A DNA stretch of 64,000 bases from Hyaloraphidium curvatum (lineage: Eukaryota; Monoblepharomycota; Hyaloraphidiomycetes; Hyaloraphidiales; Hyaloraphidiaceae): contig JAIVFI010000016.1 of NCBI GenBank assembly GCA_025558095.1, positions 677,508-741,507 on the forward strand. Reading direction: 5' to 3'. This document shows, piece after piece, positions 31,553-64,000 of this stretch (within the stretch, counting starts at the first letter, position 1; each line of letters begins with the position of its first letter). The notes beneath the pieces are model-generated. The model searched no databases and was not told where the DNA came from. It saw only the letters and a program-made list of their open reading frames with translations. Made by a program: the position numbers and the translations under genes.

Positions 31553-34500
31553 ATGTCCGGGCGGTTCGGGACGGTCCGGAGGGCGGCACTGCTGCTCGTG
31601 ATGGGCCTGGCGGCGCTTTGTGCTGCCGCGGGAGCCGCCGGTGCCGCGGGGGATCCTGCCGGGTGGACGGCCGGGCCGAAGTGGTGGGTGCTCTCCGGCC
31701 TGCCGCGGGTGCGAGCCGGAGCTGGGCGGGGCAGCAAGATGACGCCGTGGCGCCCTCGCCCTCTTCCGGCGACGCGACATCTCCGCCGTCAGCGCTGACG
31801 GTCCCTTCCCGCCGCAGCTGCCCCGGCTGCGCGTACGCCAACGCCCAGCGATGCTGCTGGTGAGCTGCTCTTTCTCCACCGCCGTCCGCGCTGACGTGTC
31901 CGTGCAGCCCATCGCGGCCCCCGCGCACGGTGCTCGCGACGCGCACCTTGTTCGCCACGCGCGTCGTCAGCCGCGGGGTGCGGAGGACGGTGACGGCCAC
32001 GCGGACCGTCACGGGGGCGCTCTTGGTAAGAAGAGAGTTGGACGAGGGCGCGGAGGGGCTGCGGGAGCGGGATTGGCCGCCCGTGCGGGAGGCGGAGGAG
32101 GGCGATCCGGCGGGGGGCGGCGACCGGGAGCCGGACGCCGCGCGCCCCTCCCTGCCCGGTCTGCCGGCCCCCGCGCTGTTCGCGCGGCACGAGTGCGGCG
32201 TCTGCCCGCCGGGCGCGCGGCTCTCCCCCTCGGGCGGGCGGGTCTGCTGCCCCCCGCGCAGGACGGTCAGGAAAACCGTCACCGTGCGCAGGACAAAGAC
32301 CCGCACGTCGACGCGGACCTCCATTGTGACGAGGACCGTGACGATCACCAGGCTTCCGCTGCCGGCAAACGCGACGATCGACGGGATCCTGTGGGTCCTC
32401 CCTTGCGGGCACCACGGGAGACAAGAAGCTGACGCGTTCCTGAATGCCAACCAAGGTTCACCGACAACGACGGCAGCGGCACCTACTCACCCGGCACGGA
32501 CTCCCTCTTCCCCTTCGAACGCGTCGGCGCGTTCAGCCTCCCCTCCGCCTCCCGTCTCGCCCGCCGCCAGACCTTGCTCGCCGAATCCGCGACCGACGCG
32601 CGCGGATTCTTCCGCCTCTCGTTCCCCCGGGTGCCGTTTCTGGCGGTGGGGATCGCGAGGATGGCGCAGCCGGGGACGCTGCTGTGGAACGCGACGGCGG
32701 GGGCGGATGGGGGTTTTCCGGCAGGGGTGGTGCAGGTCCCCGTGCCGCCGGGTGCGTCAACGACGGCTTCGGGGACAACAAAATCGAGGACGGAGGCGAG
32801 CGCTTCGGAGAGCACGACCTCGAGTTCTGCGAGCGCGACGGCCGGCGAGAGCCGGAGCTTGACGGCGACGACCAGCGAGTCGCGGAGCTTGACGGCGACA
32901 ACCAGCGAGAGCCAGAGTCTGACGGACACGACCAGCGAGAGCCAGAGCCGGACCGCAACGACGTCGGAATCGCAGAGCTTGACGGCCACGACCAGCCAGT
33001 CCCGCAGCTTGACGGCGACGACCAGCGAGTCCGCTTCCGCAACGGCCACGACCTCGGAATCGCAGAGCCTGACGGCGACGACCAGCCAGTCCCGCAGCTT
33101 GACGGCAACGACCAGCGAGAGCCAGAGCTTAACGGCGACGACTTCGGAATCGCAGAGCTTCACAGCAACGACCAGCGAGAGCCAGAGTCGGACAGCGACG
33201 ACGAGCGAGAGCCAGAGTCGGACGGCGACGACGAGCGAGAGCCAGAGCGTAGCGGCGACAACTAGCGAGAGCCAGAGCCGGACAGCAACGACCAGCGAGT
33301 CGCAGAGCCTGACGGCCACGACCAGCGAGTCGCAGAGCTTGACGGCGACCACCAGCGAGAGCCAGAGCCGGACAGCGACGACGTCGGAATCGCAGAGCTT
33401 GACGGCCACGACCAGCCAGTCCCGCAGCTTGACGGCGACGACTAGCGAGTCTGCTTCCGCAACGGCCACGACTTCGGAATCGCAGAGCCTGACGACCACG
33501 ACCAGCGAGAGCCGGAGCTTGACCGCAACTAGCAGCGACAGCCAGAGCCGGACAGCGACGACCAGCGAGAGCCATAGTCTGACGGCCACGACGAGCGAGA
33601 GCCAGAGTCTGACGGCCACGACGAGCGAGCGCCAGAGCTTAACGGCGACGACCAGCGAGAGCCAGAGCCGGACCGCAACGACGTCGGAATCGCAGACCGT
33701 CACTTCGAGCACGACTTCCGAGTCCCCCACACCCTCGACGGTACGTCCTTGGCCCGGCTGCAAATTCGCGGCGCTGCTGATGCCTTTGCGTCCCCAGACC
33801 TCCGAGTCGGAAACGCCGAGCTCCACTTCGGAGACTCTCTCAACCGCCTCGGAGACGCTCTCCAGCACCTCGTTCACGGCGTCCAGCTCGACGCTCTCTA
33901 CCTCCTCCGAAACCCTGACCAGCACGTCGGAAACTTGGACGAGTACCTCGCTCACGGCATCCAGTTCTACGCTCTCCAGCACCTCCGAAGCCCGGACTAG
34001 CACGTCGAAAACTCTGACCAGCACTTCGTTCACGCCGTCTAGCTCGAAGTTGACGAGCACGTCGGAGACTGCGACCAGTTCTACGCTCTCCAGCACCTCC
34101 GAGACGCTGACGAGCACGTCGGAAACCCCGACGAGTACCACGCCTTCGAGCACCTCCGAGACTGCTACCAGTTCCACGATCTCCAGCACCACGGCGACGG
34201 CGACTCCAAGCTCGACATCGGAGACCCGCACGCTCAGCACATCGTCGGAGACTGCCACACCGAGCTCGACCTCGGAGACTCGGACGCCCAGCACCAGTTC
34301 GCTGACCATCACGTCGTCGGAGACCCCGAGCACCAGCTCGTTGACCCCAACGACCAGCTCCAGCACGTCCGAGACGGCCACGACGAGCTCGTCCGAGACG
34401 GCAACCAGCACGTCCTTGTCGCAGACGACCACGGAATCGAGAACGACCTCCTTCACCCCCACATCTGTGCGTGCCCGCCTCAGAAGGCGGCCCGGCGGCT

Positions 34501-59430: not shown

Positions 59431-60735
59431 ATGCCCGACACGTCGCATCCCGCGCCGCTGACGCGCCTCGCGTTCGGCTCGTGTTCCAACGCCCGCAAGG
59501 GGCGGCAGTCGGACGTGTGGGATGCCGTCGCCGCGCGGCAGCCCGAGCTGTGGGTGTGGACGGGCGACGCGGTCTACGCGAAGGGCGGCACGGGGAGCTC
59601 GGAGAAGGCCCTCGATCGCGTGAAGGATGCCTACGGACAGATGCTGGGCGCGACGCTGGGACGTTGGGCGGCCAACACCACGGGCGACTCGGCCTACGCG
59701 TCGTTCGCCCGCTCGCTGCCCCTTCCCGTCGTCGGCACGTGGGACGACCACGACCTCGGGAGGAACGACGGGGGCAGGCACGTCCCGCGTCTGCCCGAGC
59801 GGCAGGCCGCCTTCCTCGACTTTCTCGGCGTGCCCGCCGGATCGACCCTGCGCGCGCGCCACGGCGTGTTCGCGCACCACGTCTACGGCCCGCCTGACCG
59901 CCGCGTCAGCCTCATCCTGGTTGACACCCGCACCTCCCGCGACGACCACGTCGTCCCCTCGGTCGCCTGGTACATGGACACCACCCCGCTCTCGACCTTC
60001 TGGGCCCTGCTGGCCGCCTGCATCCGCTTCGCGTCGGCATACTCGGGTCTCACCGCCCTCGGCGACCGGCGCGGACGGCAGATGCTCGGGGAGGAGCAGT
60101 GGACCTGGCTCGCCCGCGCGCTCGCGGAGCCGGCCAACGCCACCCTCCTCGTCTCGTCGGTGCAGGTCGTCGCGACCACCCCAACCACCGAATCGTGGGG
60201 CCACTTCCCCCGCGAGCGCACGCGGCTCCTCCGCCTCCTCCGCGAGGCCGACCCCGCGGGACTGGTCATCGTCTCGGGGGACGTCCACGTCGCCGAGGTG
60301 CTCGGGCTGCCGGGTCTCCCGGACCTCGAGGTCACCTCCTCGGGGCTGACGCACAGCTGCGCCGACTCGCTCAAGGTGCAGGCGCTGTGCGACTTGGTGT
60401 GGTCGTTCGGGGGGGAGCACAGGCGGGGGGTGTTTGTGGGGAGGAACTGGGCCGACGTGTCGGTGGACTGGGAGGGGGAGAAGGTAACGGTGGAGGTGCG
60501 GTCGCTGGAGGAGGGGAGCAGGGGGGAGGTGGTGCTCAGCGTCGAGAGGGGAATGGGGGTGCGGGCGACGGAGCTGATCCCGGCGGATGTGGACGGGGTT
60601 CAGGGGGTGGTTCCGGGGCCGGCGTGGATCGCGGCGTTCTACCTCGCGGTGCTCGCGGTGCTGATTGCCCTCGTCGCGGTGACGCGGTGGCACTTCGGTT
60701 CGAGGCGGCGGTCCGCAAAGCGGAAGGCAGAATAG
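59431..60735 (+). CDS. PhoD-like metallophosphatase with C-terminal membrane anchor
   Basis: This intronless gene encodes 434 residues from the ATG at 59431; the frame opens earlier without an ATG. LAFGSCSNARKG, LWVWTGDAVYA and TWDDHDLGRND supply metal and phosphate ligands in PhoD order, followed by ILVDTRTSRDD, WTWLARAL and IVSGDVHVAEV. A hydrophobic helix (WIAAFYLAVLAVLIALVAV) and a basic end (RRRSAKRK) form a tail anchor, with no signal peptide. PhoD enzymes cleave phosphomonoesters and diesters. The tail would keep the catalytic domain on the cytosolic side of a membrane. It is the last gene before the subtelomere. Confidence 0.92.
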   Translation: MPDTSHPAPLTRLAFGSCSNARKGRQSDVWDAVAARQPELWVWTGDAVYAKGGTGSSEKALDRVKDAYGQMLGATLGRWAANTTGDSAYASFARSLPLPVVGTWDDHDLGRNDGGRHVPRLPERQAAFLDFLGVPAGSTLRARHGVFAHHVYGPPDRRVSLILVDTRTSRDDHVVPSVAWYMDTTPLSTFWALLAACIRFASAYSGLTALGDRRGRQMLGEEQWTWLARALAEPANATLLVSSVQVVATTPTTESWGHFPRERTRLLRLLREADPAGLVIVSGDVHVAEVLGLPGLPDLEVTSSGLTHSCADSLKVQALCDLVWSFGGEHRRGVFVGRNWADVSVDWEGEKVTVEVRSLEEGSRGEVVLSVERGMGVRATELIPADVDGVQGVVPGPAWIAAFYLAVLAVLIALVAVTRWHFGSRRRSAKRKAE

Positions 60736-60854
60736 AGGATTCCCGCAGCAGGGCTGACAACGATCGATCGATGTGTCCGCCGGGAGGCGTGAGGAAGGGT
60801 CTTCCGCGTTCGACAGATTCCCGATTCTTGGCTGCCAAGCAAGGCCAAGGTATA

Positions 60855-60869
60855 CCTAACCTAACCTAA
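60855..60869 (-). repeat. Inverted interstitial telomere-type repeat (CCTAA)3
   Basis: Three perfect CCTAA units lie 120 bp after the PhoD stop, in the opposite orientation to the terminal TTAGG array. They sit at the boundary between the gene-bearing and repeat-bearing parts. Confidence 0.8.
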
Positions 60870-61326
60870 GTGCGACATCTACCCCGCTTCAATAGAGTTA
60901 GGGCACTGTCTGCCGGGGTCCGCTGGGGCCGGGGTTTAAGCTCCGCCGGGGCCGAATAGTCAATGCACGGGCTCGCTGACTGGCCTACCGCTTTGGAGAG
61001 TCATTTCGGGCCCGGGCGGCGATATGATCGAACACGCAGGCGACCCGGATGGCTCGAGGGCGCCTTGCGTGACGAGACGCTCCGCCCACCCAAGCGCCGC
61101 ATCACCGCCCCAACTCCCTGCTGCCGCGCGAAATGAGCCACCCCGCCACATCCACCTTCGACTCCCAAGCCGCCCTTGCTGCCGCCGACCTTGCCGGCTC
61201 CGCGCTGCATCTGCCCGAGTCGTGTGATGGTGCGCCCGCGGCCGAGAATGGCCCGTTGCCGCGGGATTCGGCAACGTGTGCGGGGAGTTCGGACCGCCTC
61301 GTCGTGGACCTAGTACCTTGTTGGGT

Positions 61327-61399
61327 GTAGAAACGGCGTTTCTACGTGTACCCACAAGTCGCCACACGGGTGGCGACTCCCAGGAACGGCGTTTCTTGG
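61327..61399. repeat. Subtelomeric hairpin unit A
   Basis: Palindrome GTAGAAACGGCGTTTCTAC (61327-61345), hairpin AGTCGCCAC/GTGGCGACT with loop ACGG (61357-61378), then a second, imperfect copy of the palindrome core around AACGGCGTTTC (61381-61399), followed by GGCGTCACCTCCG. Confidence 0.85.
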
Positions 61400-61542
61400 C
61401 GTCACCTCCGTCCCGCCCAACTCCGGAACGCAGCCTTGCACACAATTCCGCGTAGAAACGGAGCTGCCGGGAAATGACGACACCGCCAGCTCCAGCGCTA
61501 TCCACCAGTAGGCTGATAGCCCGGGAGGAGGTGTAGCGCGTG

Positions 61543-61560
61543 GACGCCGGCGAGGAAGGC
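61543..61560 (+). repeat. Subtelomeric 18-bp box, copy 1
   Basis: GACGCCGGCGAGGAAGGC is identical to 62603-62620, with weaker similarity on both sides, marking duplicated blocks downstream of units A and C. Confidence 0.7.
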
Positions 61561-62209
61561 GGCCGCGGCTCGGGTCCCAACTAGTAGAGGTCCGCCCCTT
61601 CCCCTCAGCGCGGTCCGCGGTCCCCACGGCGCCTTCCATACTATAGCGCGCTGCCGCTGCTGGCGCAACGAAGGCACCCGAGGTGTCTCCGGGTGTGGGG
61701 TGAGGTCGAGTTGCGCGGGGGGCGGACGGACGCGGGACGACCTTGCGGCGCCGTCGCCCACACCCCGAGTTCCACTCTGCCGGCTCCGCGGCCCCCATGG
61801 GCTCGACGCAGTGTGGTGCCCTACCGGCTGGCGGCGGCGCGGGGTCCGCGGACGGTTGGGGAACCGGCGCCGGCGCCGCGACCAAGTTGGACACGGACAC
61901 GGCTGCCACCCCCTTCCCCACCGGTGCCCCGCCCTGCGACGCGACCCGTTGCCTTGCGCGACCGAAGCGCGTGTCCTCTGCCGTTTGCCGGAACGGGGAC
62001 GCGGTTTTGCGCGCGGGCCAAGTCCGTGGACCCGGACCTTCGCCGCGTCCGCGCTCGGAGGGTACCGCTCTAGGGCTCCCGCGCACGTGCCTGTGCATTC
62101 GCCGGTATCATGCCTACACGCTCTGGCGATGGGGGACGCTGACTACGAGGTTGGTGTTGGGGGAGGGGCCCCCGCTGTGGTCGTCCTTGGCCTAGTACCC
62201 TGTTGGGCG

Positions 62210-62280
62210 CAGAATCGGCGATTCTGGCAGTCGCCACCAGTCACCAAACGGACGGTGACGGCCAGGATCGCCGATTCTGG
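62210..62280. repeat. Subtelomeric hairpin unit B
   Basis: Palindrome CAGAATCGGCGATTCTG (62210-62226), hairpin GTCACC/GGTGAC with loop AAACGGAC (62240-62259), then CCAGGATCGCCGATTCTGG (62262-62280, one mismatch), followed by GCGTCACCTCCG as in unit A. Confidence 0.85.
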
Positions 62281-62388
62281 GCGTCACCTCCGCCAAACCG
62301 AACTCCGGATCGCAGCCCTGCCCGCTATTCCCCTCGGATTCGCCAGCTCCGAGCACCGCTGACACCGCCTATACCCTGGACCGGGTTG

Positions 62389-62457
62389 CGAACGGCGTTC
62401 GGAAGCCTTGCCATCACTTGCCAAACGGAGGGCAAGTTTTCCGAACGCCGTTCGGAA
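62389..62457. repeat. Subtelomeric hairpin unit C
   Basis: Palindrome CGAACGGCGTTCG (62389-62401), hairpin ACTTGCC/GGCAAGT with loop AAACGGAG (62416-62437), then the perfect palindrome TTCCGAACGCCGTTCGGAA (62439-62457). Confidence 0.85.
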
Positions 62458-62602
62458 GACTTGCGATCCCGGACCCGCCACTCCGGACGACCACTGTGCC
62501 CCCCCGGCGATTGCGGACGCCGGTTCCCGGGTACCATTGGCTTGAGCAGGTCCGGCGCCGTCTTCTGCCGGGTGGAGAGCCGGGAGGAAGGCGAAGAGCC
62601 CC

Positions 62603-62620
62603 GACGCCGGCGAGGAAGGC
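62603..62620 (+). repeat. Subtelomeric 18-bp box, copy 2
   Basis: Second exact copy of the 18-mer at 61543-61560, 1,060 bp further on. Confidence 0.7.
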
Positions 62621-63865
62621 AGCAGGAGGAGGACGTCCAGTTGGCGGAGCTTCGTCGGTTCCCCCTCCGCCGGCCGCTCGATCCCAGGGTAGAATAGAGC
62701 CTATCCCGCCGTTTTGCATGCGGGGGAAGGACGCCTGACGAGGTCCTGGGGTGGGGTGAGCCGGCCTCGGGGGAACGGCGCCCTCGTCTTGGGACCCTCT
62801 CGTGGCGTCGCCGCCCCCTCCCCTCCCCGGCCTCTCCCCGCCTCGGCACCCCCACCAGCTCGCCGCAGTATGCCCTTCTCCAAACGTGCGGCGTCGCGCG
62901 GTCCCTCGGCCACCTGGGCACCGGTGCCGACCCCGATAAGCAAGCGGACACGGCCACGTCCGTGGCACCCTCCCTCGCCGTCCTGCCCCCTCCCGACGCG
63001 CCCCCCGCGCTTTTTCGATTATGGCGCATGGGTTCCGGCGTTGGCCCGCGCCCTGGCGGGGTTTTGCGCGTCGGAGTTCTCCTCGGGCCGGCACCTTCGT
63101 CGCCACGGGGCTCGGCCACTTATGTCCCCAGCCAAGCGGCTGGACTACCAACGGCTCTGTTGTACCTATGCAATCGAGCAATGGACGTGGGAGGAGCCCC
63201 GGCGGGGTTGGTGCATGACCGGCAGACTCGCTGCCCACCAGGTCGGGGGAAGACAACGTGTCGCCTGAACCTCGCCGGCCACCCGCAACCGCACGGCAGA
63301 TGATTGCAACAGATACGCAATGGTGATCGCGCTCGTTCCTGGGCAGTTTGACGCCGTCCAGGTTCACCAGGGTCCGCGCGCCCCCACGGCTTCCTTGGGC
63401 CAGTGACTGACGATGGGCCAAGATCGACAGGCCCGAGTCCCGCCCGCCGCAGCTCATTCGTTTGCCGTTGTTGATCAAGGAAAGGGCGATGTCCGGGAGC
63501 GTGGGGCCTGGAAGGTCCAACCACCTCGCGCTCCCCGGCCGGATGACCTCCCACGCCCAAGGCCGGCGCCGTCGTCCGAAGTTGACAGCGACGGATCCCA
63601 CCGCTCTTCCTTCATTCGATTGCCAATGTTCGTCCGGGATCCGGCCGAGCTTGGCCCATAGTCGGTCGCCGAGCTCCCTCTCGCCCCGCTTGCGCGGACG
63701 ATCGGCAAGCAAGGCGTGGGGAACCCGCGAAAGTCCTTCCTGTCCCGCCCCTCGAAGTCATGGGGTTGAAGAGGCACATGAGGCATCCCGGCCCGCGCGA
63801 TAGAACTCCCCCCCGCGACTCTGCGGGGCATCGGGCGCTAGGGCCCGCGTCCCGGGGATGGAACT

Positions 63866-64000
63866 TTAGGTTAGGTTAGGTTAGGTTAGGTTAGGTTAGG
63901 TTAGGTTAGGTTAGGTTAGGTTAGGTTAGGTTAGGTTAGGTTAGGTTAGGTTAGGTTAGTTAGGTTAGGTTAGTAGGTTAGGTAGGTTAGGTTAGGTTAG
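63866..64000 (+). repeat. Telomere, (TTAGG)n
   Basis: The first 18 units are perfect TTAGG. The last 45 bases include shortened TTAG and TAGG units. G-rich strand orientation fits a right chromosome end. The unit is five bases, not the TTAGGG usual in fungi. Confidence 0.95.

Follow-up and report, generated by a model that had tools for sequence, protein, structure and literature searches.

A conserved hairpin at the terminus of a subtelomeric repeat in Hyaloraphidium curvatum, possibly an RNA end copied onto broken chromosomes

Hyaloraphidium curvatum is a little-studied water fungus of the Monoblepharomycota, related to the chytrids. The window considered here, a stretch of 64,000 nucleotides, forms the 3′ end of contig C16 (741,507 bp) in a genome of 31.9 Mb and 55 contigs. 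Its last letters are telomere repeats (TTAGG), which are also found at the ends of contigs C1, C2, C3, C8, C10, C11, C14, C36, and C43. Among the ten telomere junctions read, the first telomere unit is TTAGGG or TTTAGGG at five, and the preceding base is C at nine. The last recognized gene before an array of three palindromic units (A, B, and C) is a PhoD-like phosphatase frame (PF09423; window positions 59431-60732). Elsewhere in the window, a 30-bp repeat present in about 28 copies (32835-33682) may, judged by eye, belong to a serine/threonine-rich surface protein. What are the palindromic units, and how did they come to stand at a chromosome end?

Palindromic Units and the Repeated Element

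The original prediction described each unit as an odd palindrome, an inner hairpin with an 8-base loop, and the palindrome again, a design that is seen on direct reading (Table 1). In unit A, the first palindrome (P1) is AGAAACG-G-CGTTTCT, the inner hairpin is GTCGCC-ACACGGGT-GGCGAC, and the second palindrome (P2) is AGGAACG-G-CGTTTCT. The corresponding parts are AGAATCG-G-CGATTCT, GTCACC-AAACGGAC-GGTGAC, and AGGATCG-C-CGATTCT in unit B, and CGAACG-G-CGTTCG, CTTGCC-AAACGGAG-GGCAAG, and TTCCGAACG-C-CGTTCGGAA in unit C. Pairing is imperfect, with a G:T step in P2 of A and B and an outer mismatch in P2 of A and P1 of C; the x word that follows P1 has decayed in the window's A copy. Direct reading and alignment also confirmed that the varied word of the palindrome recurs in the flank (CCGGAACG in A, CCGGATCG in B).

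Table 1. Coordinates of the array and of neighboring features in the window.
Feature	Position	Strand	Parts or basis
Interstitial CCTAA repeats left of the array, orientation opposite to that of the telomere	60854..60869	+	Read in sequence
A unit	61310..61408	.	P1 61327-61345, x2 61358-61363, 8-nt loop 61364-61371, x' 61372-61377, P2 61382-61396, x4 61398-61406; putative element RNA on the minus strand
Family A copy, precise left end CTAGTACC, ragged right end at B start	61310..62191	+	Alignment with copies on C3, C10, C22, C36
B unit	62192..62290	.	P1 62210-62226, x2 62240-62245, loop 62246-62253, x' 62254-62259, P2 62264-62278
Family B copy, stopped after ~175 nt by C start	62192..62367	+	Alignment with other copies
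C unit	62368..62467	.	P1 centre 62395, x2 62417-62422, loop 62423-62430, x' 62431-62436, P2 62439-62457
Family C copy, precise left end CCTATACCC	62368..63782	+	Sequence comparison
88-bp patch, 99% identical to C11:805172-805259 (opposite strand), last letters TTTAGG = telomere start	63783..63870	+	Sequence comparison
(TTAGG)n telomere, terminus of contig C16	63866..64000	+	Read in sequence

Each unit in the window is the first ~100 nt of one copy of a repeated, apparently non-coding element. The DNA queries against the genome were the originally predicted interval, complete copies of A and C, the C unit, the start of D, and the final part of the window; a pattern search was added. At least 26 copies were found on 17 contigs (counts from the DNA searches are lower bounds), and the units were shown to recur near other chromosome ends. 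Four families share one common body. Family A is found on C3, C10, C16, C22, and C36; family B on C8, C10, C16, and C22, with a 48-bp piece on C30; family C on C6, C11 (two copies), C12, C14, C16, C22, C33, and C35; and the newly found family D on C8, C9, C10, C11, C26, C28, and C43. The count of 26 leaves out the C10 array's second, inverted copy and, on C19, a fragment with body sequence only. The C10 array (807.5-814.6 kb) is mirrored about a telomere and is probably a fold-back assembly artefact.

The copies are concentrated at contig ends: 24 of 26 lie less than 10 kb from one, and all 24 face outward (plus strand at contig 3′ ends, minus strand at the starts of C9 and C22). The internal copies are on C26 (115 kb from the contig start) and C30 (36 kb). 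Eight of the 15 contig ends bearing the element carry a visible telomere (C3, C8, C10, C11, C14, C16, C36, and C43), a tally in which the last bases of C6, C12, C28, C33, and C35 lay outside the sequence read; the letters read at the starts of C9 and C22 hold no telomere. Other chromosome ends lacking such units had been named as evidence against the original prediction. Units do stand at other ends, and none is present in the last 1.6 kb of C1 and C2; thus, they are not a general feature of chromosome ends, and the idea that a telomere requires the element is rejected. The C1 and C2 ends (L009, L030) consist of a Ty3-like element, recognized on C2 by a Pfam match to gag and on C1 by sequence overlapping it, that is cut at differing points and followed directly by telomere repeats, i.e., they are broken ends healed without the hairpin element.

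The longest copies read are ~1.4 kb. Eleven pairwise comparisons of the body, in which indels were ignored and no formal test was applied, gave no consistent third-position excess, and the long GC-rich frames were therefore dropped as genes; in two comparisons (win_A/c22_A and c43_D/c26_D), one position is about half as variable. No Rfam family reached its gathering score in the whole window, where E<=1 yields three weak matches to microRNA models only. The element has no poly(A), and neither a reverse transcriptase reading frame nor gag was seen in its copies.

Pairing and Covariation of the Arms

Single palindromes are hardly unusual in this GC-rich sequence: the window has 26 with arms of at least 7, and ten Markov windows have 14-24 each. 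When the sequence was scored for ungapped 28-bp arms around a 3-20 nt loop, an arm length picked only after the units had been seen, B and C were the two best sites in 64 kb, with 24 of 28 Watson-Crick pairs against a best of 21 in any of 20 Markov windows; A scored 20, which 17 of the 20 Markov windows matched. Folding z-scores range from -3.1 to -7.8 for A, B, and C units (seven units, both strands) and from -1.7 to +1.2 for four D units, which lack the long hairpin. By our own reading of the folds, this hairpin is present in 13 of 14 A, B, and C folds, the exception being the minus strand of the window's A copy.

In alignment A2, columns 20-47 pair with columns 62-89 in a single ungapped register, in which P1 pairs with P2 on the outside and x1 with x' on the inside. 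Being palindromic, P1 and P2 can each also fold alone while x2 pairs with x', and this is the three-helix version of the original prediction. Nine copies were aligned, namely the units read whole or nearly so with cut copies left out, and were judged to represent about five independent lineages. The long register has 17 of 28 pairs compensated (0-4 in slid registers) and the three-helix reading 13 of 22 (0-5), values that none of 500 shuffles reached in either case. Pairing is kept in 86.5% of cells in the long register and 93.9% in the three-helix reading. The count of further pair types is not in excess over shuffles, 216 and 388 of 500 of which reach it. Between families, the changed stem positions of the long register are often compensated (24/32 from B to C, 16/25 from A to C, and 8/16 from A to B); within families, the figures are 4/13 in B and 0/6 in A and C, where four pairs are broken. 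Such figures agree with a picture in which selection acts on source copies while dead copies decay.

Pairing is perhaps not the whole constraint, since the C33 copy, altered on both arms of P1, has its x word altered alike in the direct repeats x1 and x2. The same picture would be expected if a protein recognized the word or if template switching took place between repeats, and template switching has been put forward, in the available portion of one study, as the origin of compensatory changes and of the creation and upkeep of hairpins (PMC8794818). Overall, the fold z-scores and the compensation in both readings support the covarying arms and maintained structure proposed for these units. The units are better described as one long hairpin at the terminus of a repeat element than as free-standing palindrome-hairpin-palindrome modules. 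A recognition word in several half-sites, which had also been suggested, may still be present, given that the x word co-changes in direct repeats that need not pair. We have high confidence that the structure is real, that its arms covary, and that it forms the terminus of a subtelomeric element. Family D, with the same body yet no strong fold, shows that the element can do without the long hairpin.

Ends of the Element and Their Possible Origin

The left terminus is precise. It is kept in 23 of the 26 copies, which start at nearly one base (CTAGTACC in A and B, CCTATACCC in C, CCTATGG or a near variant in D); the second C copy on C11 has a small deletion just inside it, and the D copies on C8 and C9 start in variant form. 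GGATTATGCATAATCC was rejected as a mark of the element's right end, having been found inside the left end of family D. The left flanks look mostly unrelated, with the exception of the inner A-B junction common to C16 and C22. As the DNA directly left of A differs between these two composites, A-B seems to have been transferred as a unit, with the precise end of A. Six junctions have an uninterrupted left sequence known from another copy, a set outside which the C10 A/D junction falls. Microhomology of 2-3 nt with the element start is found at five of them (CTA at C16 A/B, CC at C16 B/C and C11 C/C, CCT at C11 C/D and at the C28 D copy); the sixth, C22 B/C, has none and ~2 nt of filler. Neither poly(A) nor telomere repeats occur at 22 of the 23 left junctions read. 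The remaining one, that of the D copy on C8, is preceded by CCTAACCTAACCTAAC (L100:27-42), an inverted telomere repeat (CCTAA).

The right end is ragged. Seven of the 26 copies run directly into a telomere (A on C3 and C36, B on C10, C on C14, D on C8, C11, and C43), seven into the next element, and ten into other DNA, and two right ends are unseen (C12 and C35). The abutments represent six distinct junctions: A/B (on both C16 and C22), B/C on C16, B/C on C22, A/D on C10, and C/C and C/D on C11. Seven right ends lie inside the unit (A at position 51; C at 55, 57, 60-64, and 62; B at 74 and 76), in x2, the loop, x', or just left of the P2 centre. The three left-truncated copies start at C 26, C 54, and B 78, at most 2 nt from the P1 centre (28), the edge of the loop (56-63), and the P2 centre (80), respectively. 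Although these breakpoints number only ten and the dyad zones were defined after seeing them, their position in the hairpin suggests breakage or polymerase switching there. One internal 48-bp B piece (C30:36.1 kb, L105) is, by eye, flanked on both sides by GCTAGCTC, like a repaired-break patch.

On sequence comparison, the DNA next to the copies is borrowed wherever it was traced. The 88-bp patch that precedes the telomere of the window matches C11, the DNA past the short C copy on C6 matches C6:11 kb, and the C22 flank has relatives on C7 and C12. The D copy on C26 continues into a probable LTR, a sequence that on C3 adjoins a gag-like start, and the D copy on C9 seems, by eye, to continue in the same way. 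The body of the window's C copy is 72% identical to a C copy on C11 until ~63526, and its homology with the D copy on C43 extends to ~63678; 63679-63782 is without known relative.

How could one end be so precise and the other so ragged? The reading we prefer, to which we give about an even chance, is that the unit corresponds to the folded 3′ terminus of a HeT-A-like RNA that was reverse-transcribed onto broken chromosome ends later capped by telomerase. We infer both the RNA and the enzyme. The left end of the element would be the 3′ end of a minus-strand RNA terminating in ...UAG(G); so read, every family has UAG or UAGG as its last letters, apart from the variant D copy on C8. At a broken end without a telomere, the free 3′ strand would anneal to this RNA end through 2-3 nt (CC, CCT, or CTA) and be extended by a reverse transcriptase acting in trans, for which the hairpin would be the recognition site. 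A bare substrate is suggested by the 22 left junctions without telomere repeats. Synthesis, or later erosion, would halt anywhere, often within the hairpin, and the resulting end would gain another element, switch to other DNA, or receive a telomerase cap. Breakage or switching at the hairpin may have acted jointly with such RNA-templated addition. Counted against RNA-templated addition are the lack of a strong fold in D, the lack of poly(A), the internal copies on C26 and C30, the starts of C9 and C22 with no telomere in the letters read, and the C8 D copy behind an inverted telomere repeat; 3′-primed reverse transcription also does not explain the three left-truncated copies.

The genome holds reverse transcriptases (150 of 175 RVT_1 candidates were scored), and these profile scores revealed no link to the element. 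Some matches are regularly spaced, by 2011 bp at C37:308-314 kb, 2028-2029 bp at C12:482-491 kb, and 1239 bp at C36:187-192 kb, like tandem arrays of reverse transcriptase-bearing repeats. A 302-aa open frame beside the C copy on C22 (L002:3-908, minus strand), resembles by eye the C-terminal part of a reverse transcriptase; it was rejected as an autonomous partner because it points outward, opposite to the expected RNA, lacks a Pfam match, and has relatives on C7 and C12. In a more daring and improbable version, a fungus with telomerase would have a second healing system, in which non-coding RNAs with a compensated hairpin and a 3′ end in ...UAGG, identical to the final four bases of the telomere repeat, are copied onto bare ends by reverse transcription, perhaps through the telomerase reverse transcriptase itself. 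If true, telomerase would possess a non-telomeric template.

Could DNA repair alone have built the array? Break-induced replication, end joining, and template switching can be proposed to have spread the subtelomeric repeats, with arm identity kept by template switching inside the inverted repeat rather than by selection and with hairpins as points of breakage or switching. Its main argument is that the in-unit breakpoints (seven right ends and three truncated starts) cluster near dyads, a small sample with zones set post hoc; the borrowed DNA next to the copies (the C11 patch, C6:11 kb, the C22 flank on C7 and C12) and the proposed making and maintenance of hairpins by template switching, in the part of PMC8794818 available, agree with it. 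However, such a patchwork does not predict a single left terminus in 23 copies, a constant outward orientation, or complete left ends abutting truncated neighbors, and the x words co-change in direct repeats too. We consider it possible, if rather unlikely. That no more than 8 of the 15 contig ends with elements showed a telomere counts slightly against RNA-templated addition and slightly in favor of this origin.

Helitrons insert between A and T and have a 3′ end of CTRR with a hairpin. A Helitron-like, one-ended rolling-circle element, whose 3′ hairpin and CTAG would form the constant left end, is suggested by the minus-strand end of A and B (hairpin, 13 nt, CTAG) and by three Helitron-like protein matches above the cut-off in the genome. 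These matches are internal (C2, C8, and C35), however, and a T follows CTAG at only one of eight distinct A/B junctions, while C and most D copies terminate in ATAG(G) rather than CTRR. The variable end would moreover be the start, the reverse of expectation, and a rolling-circle origin seems improbable. Equally doubtful is that the hairpin is primarily the site of a sequence-specific DNA protein, such as a recombinase or a subtelomere binder, with co-evolving half-sites and only secondary mobility. The P word occurs in both palindromes and the flank, and the x word three times in direct and once in inverted orientation, all co-changing between families, as such a site would have it. Yet the C1 and C2 ends manage without it, it is located at an element terminus in the copies read, and its direct repeats could equally be alternative pairing partners. 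For a foldback element or recombinase site, the structure is at the left end only in the copies read, and the natural right end may be unseen.

Comparison With Known Systems

Among systems known to us, Helitrons resemble the element in the 3′ hairpin near CTAG of A and B and differ in their A/T target, in the CTRR that C and most D copies lack, and in which end varies. The linear mitochondrial DNA ends of H. curvatum and the double-hairpin elements of Allomyces may offer further comparisons. Judged by title, no publication was found on Hyaloraphidium nuclear telomeres, and the available text of a review of fungal telomeres gave no matches to the search terms as whole words, which stems such as "palindrom" would escape (PMC8381367).

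The closest likeness is to the telomeric non-LTR elements of Drosophila, HeT-A, TART, and TAHRE, whose arrays arise by terminal reverse transcription according to the available part of PMC5537684. The copies described here recall those arrays in their exact left terminus, uneven outer end, constant orientation, and end-to-end abutment. Both form same-direction, head-to-tail arrays at chromosome ends with the 3′ end (here the putative one) toward the centromere, and both have a long non-coding 3′ region and possible erosion of the outer 5′ end. In contrast, the H. curvatum ends have telomerase-type caps, and the copies of the element, ~1.4 kb at most as read, show no gag or reverse transcriptase, no poly(A), and a structured end with compensated arms. 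Measured against telomeric non-LTR elements in general, the copies show one orientation at ends (24 of 26), a fixed, presumably 3′ left end (23 of 26), and a ragged, presumably 5′ right end; at 22 of the 23 left junctions read, the poly(A) or telomere repeats typical of such elements are missing.

Two fungal systems, MoTeR (PMC7367193) and FoTeR (PMC12857005), are likewise terminal, with 5′ truncations healed by de novo telomeres and rearranged ends in the portions of these papers available. Their 3′ ends lie in telomere repeats, however, which is the case at only one of the 23 left junctions here (on C8, inverted), and the reverse transcriptase frame they carry was not seen in the element. 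Endonuclease-deficient Penelope-like elements, or Terminons, are also added to uncapped ends and truncated at the 5′ end, but are described in the accessible text as ending on the 3′ side in a short telomeric stretch and as carrying a reverse transcriptase of their own (PMC5537684), neither of which was seen here. In retrotranscription of telomerase RNA, a copy of a non-coding RNA and telomere repeats patch a break through few homologous nucleotides (PMC2246262, as far as available); those loci are interstitial and in rodents, whereas the repeat described here has several families near chromosome ends.

The distinction between telomerase and retrotransposons becomes less sharp where elements are added to chromosome ends. 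The family described here provides a natural record of hairpin breakpoints and suggests that broken ends are possibly patched with RNA copies alongside normal telomerase. The known cases compared carry a reverse transcriptase gene or are seated in telomere repeats. If a non-coding, hairpin-ended family is indeed added to bare ends in a chytrid-related fungus, the healing enzyme and its RNA template would become directly testable.
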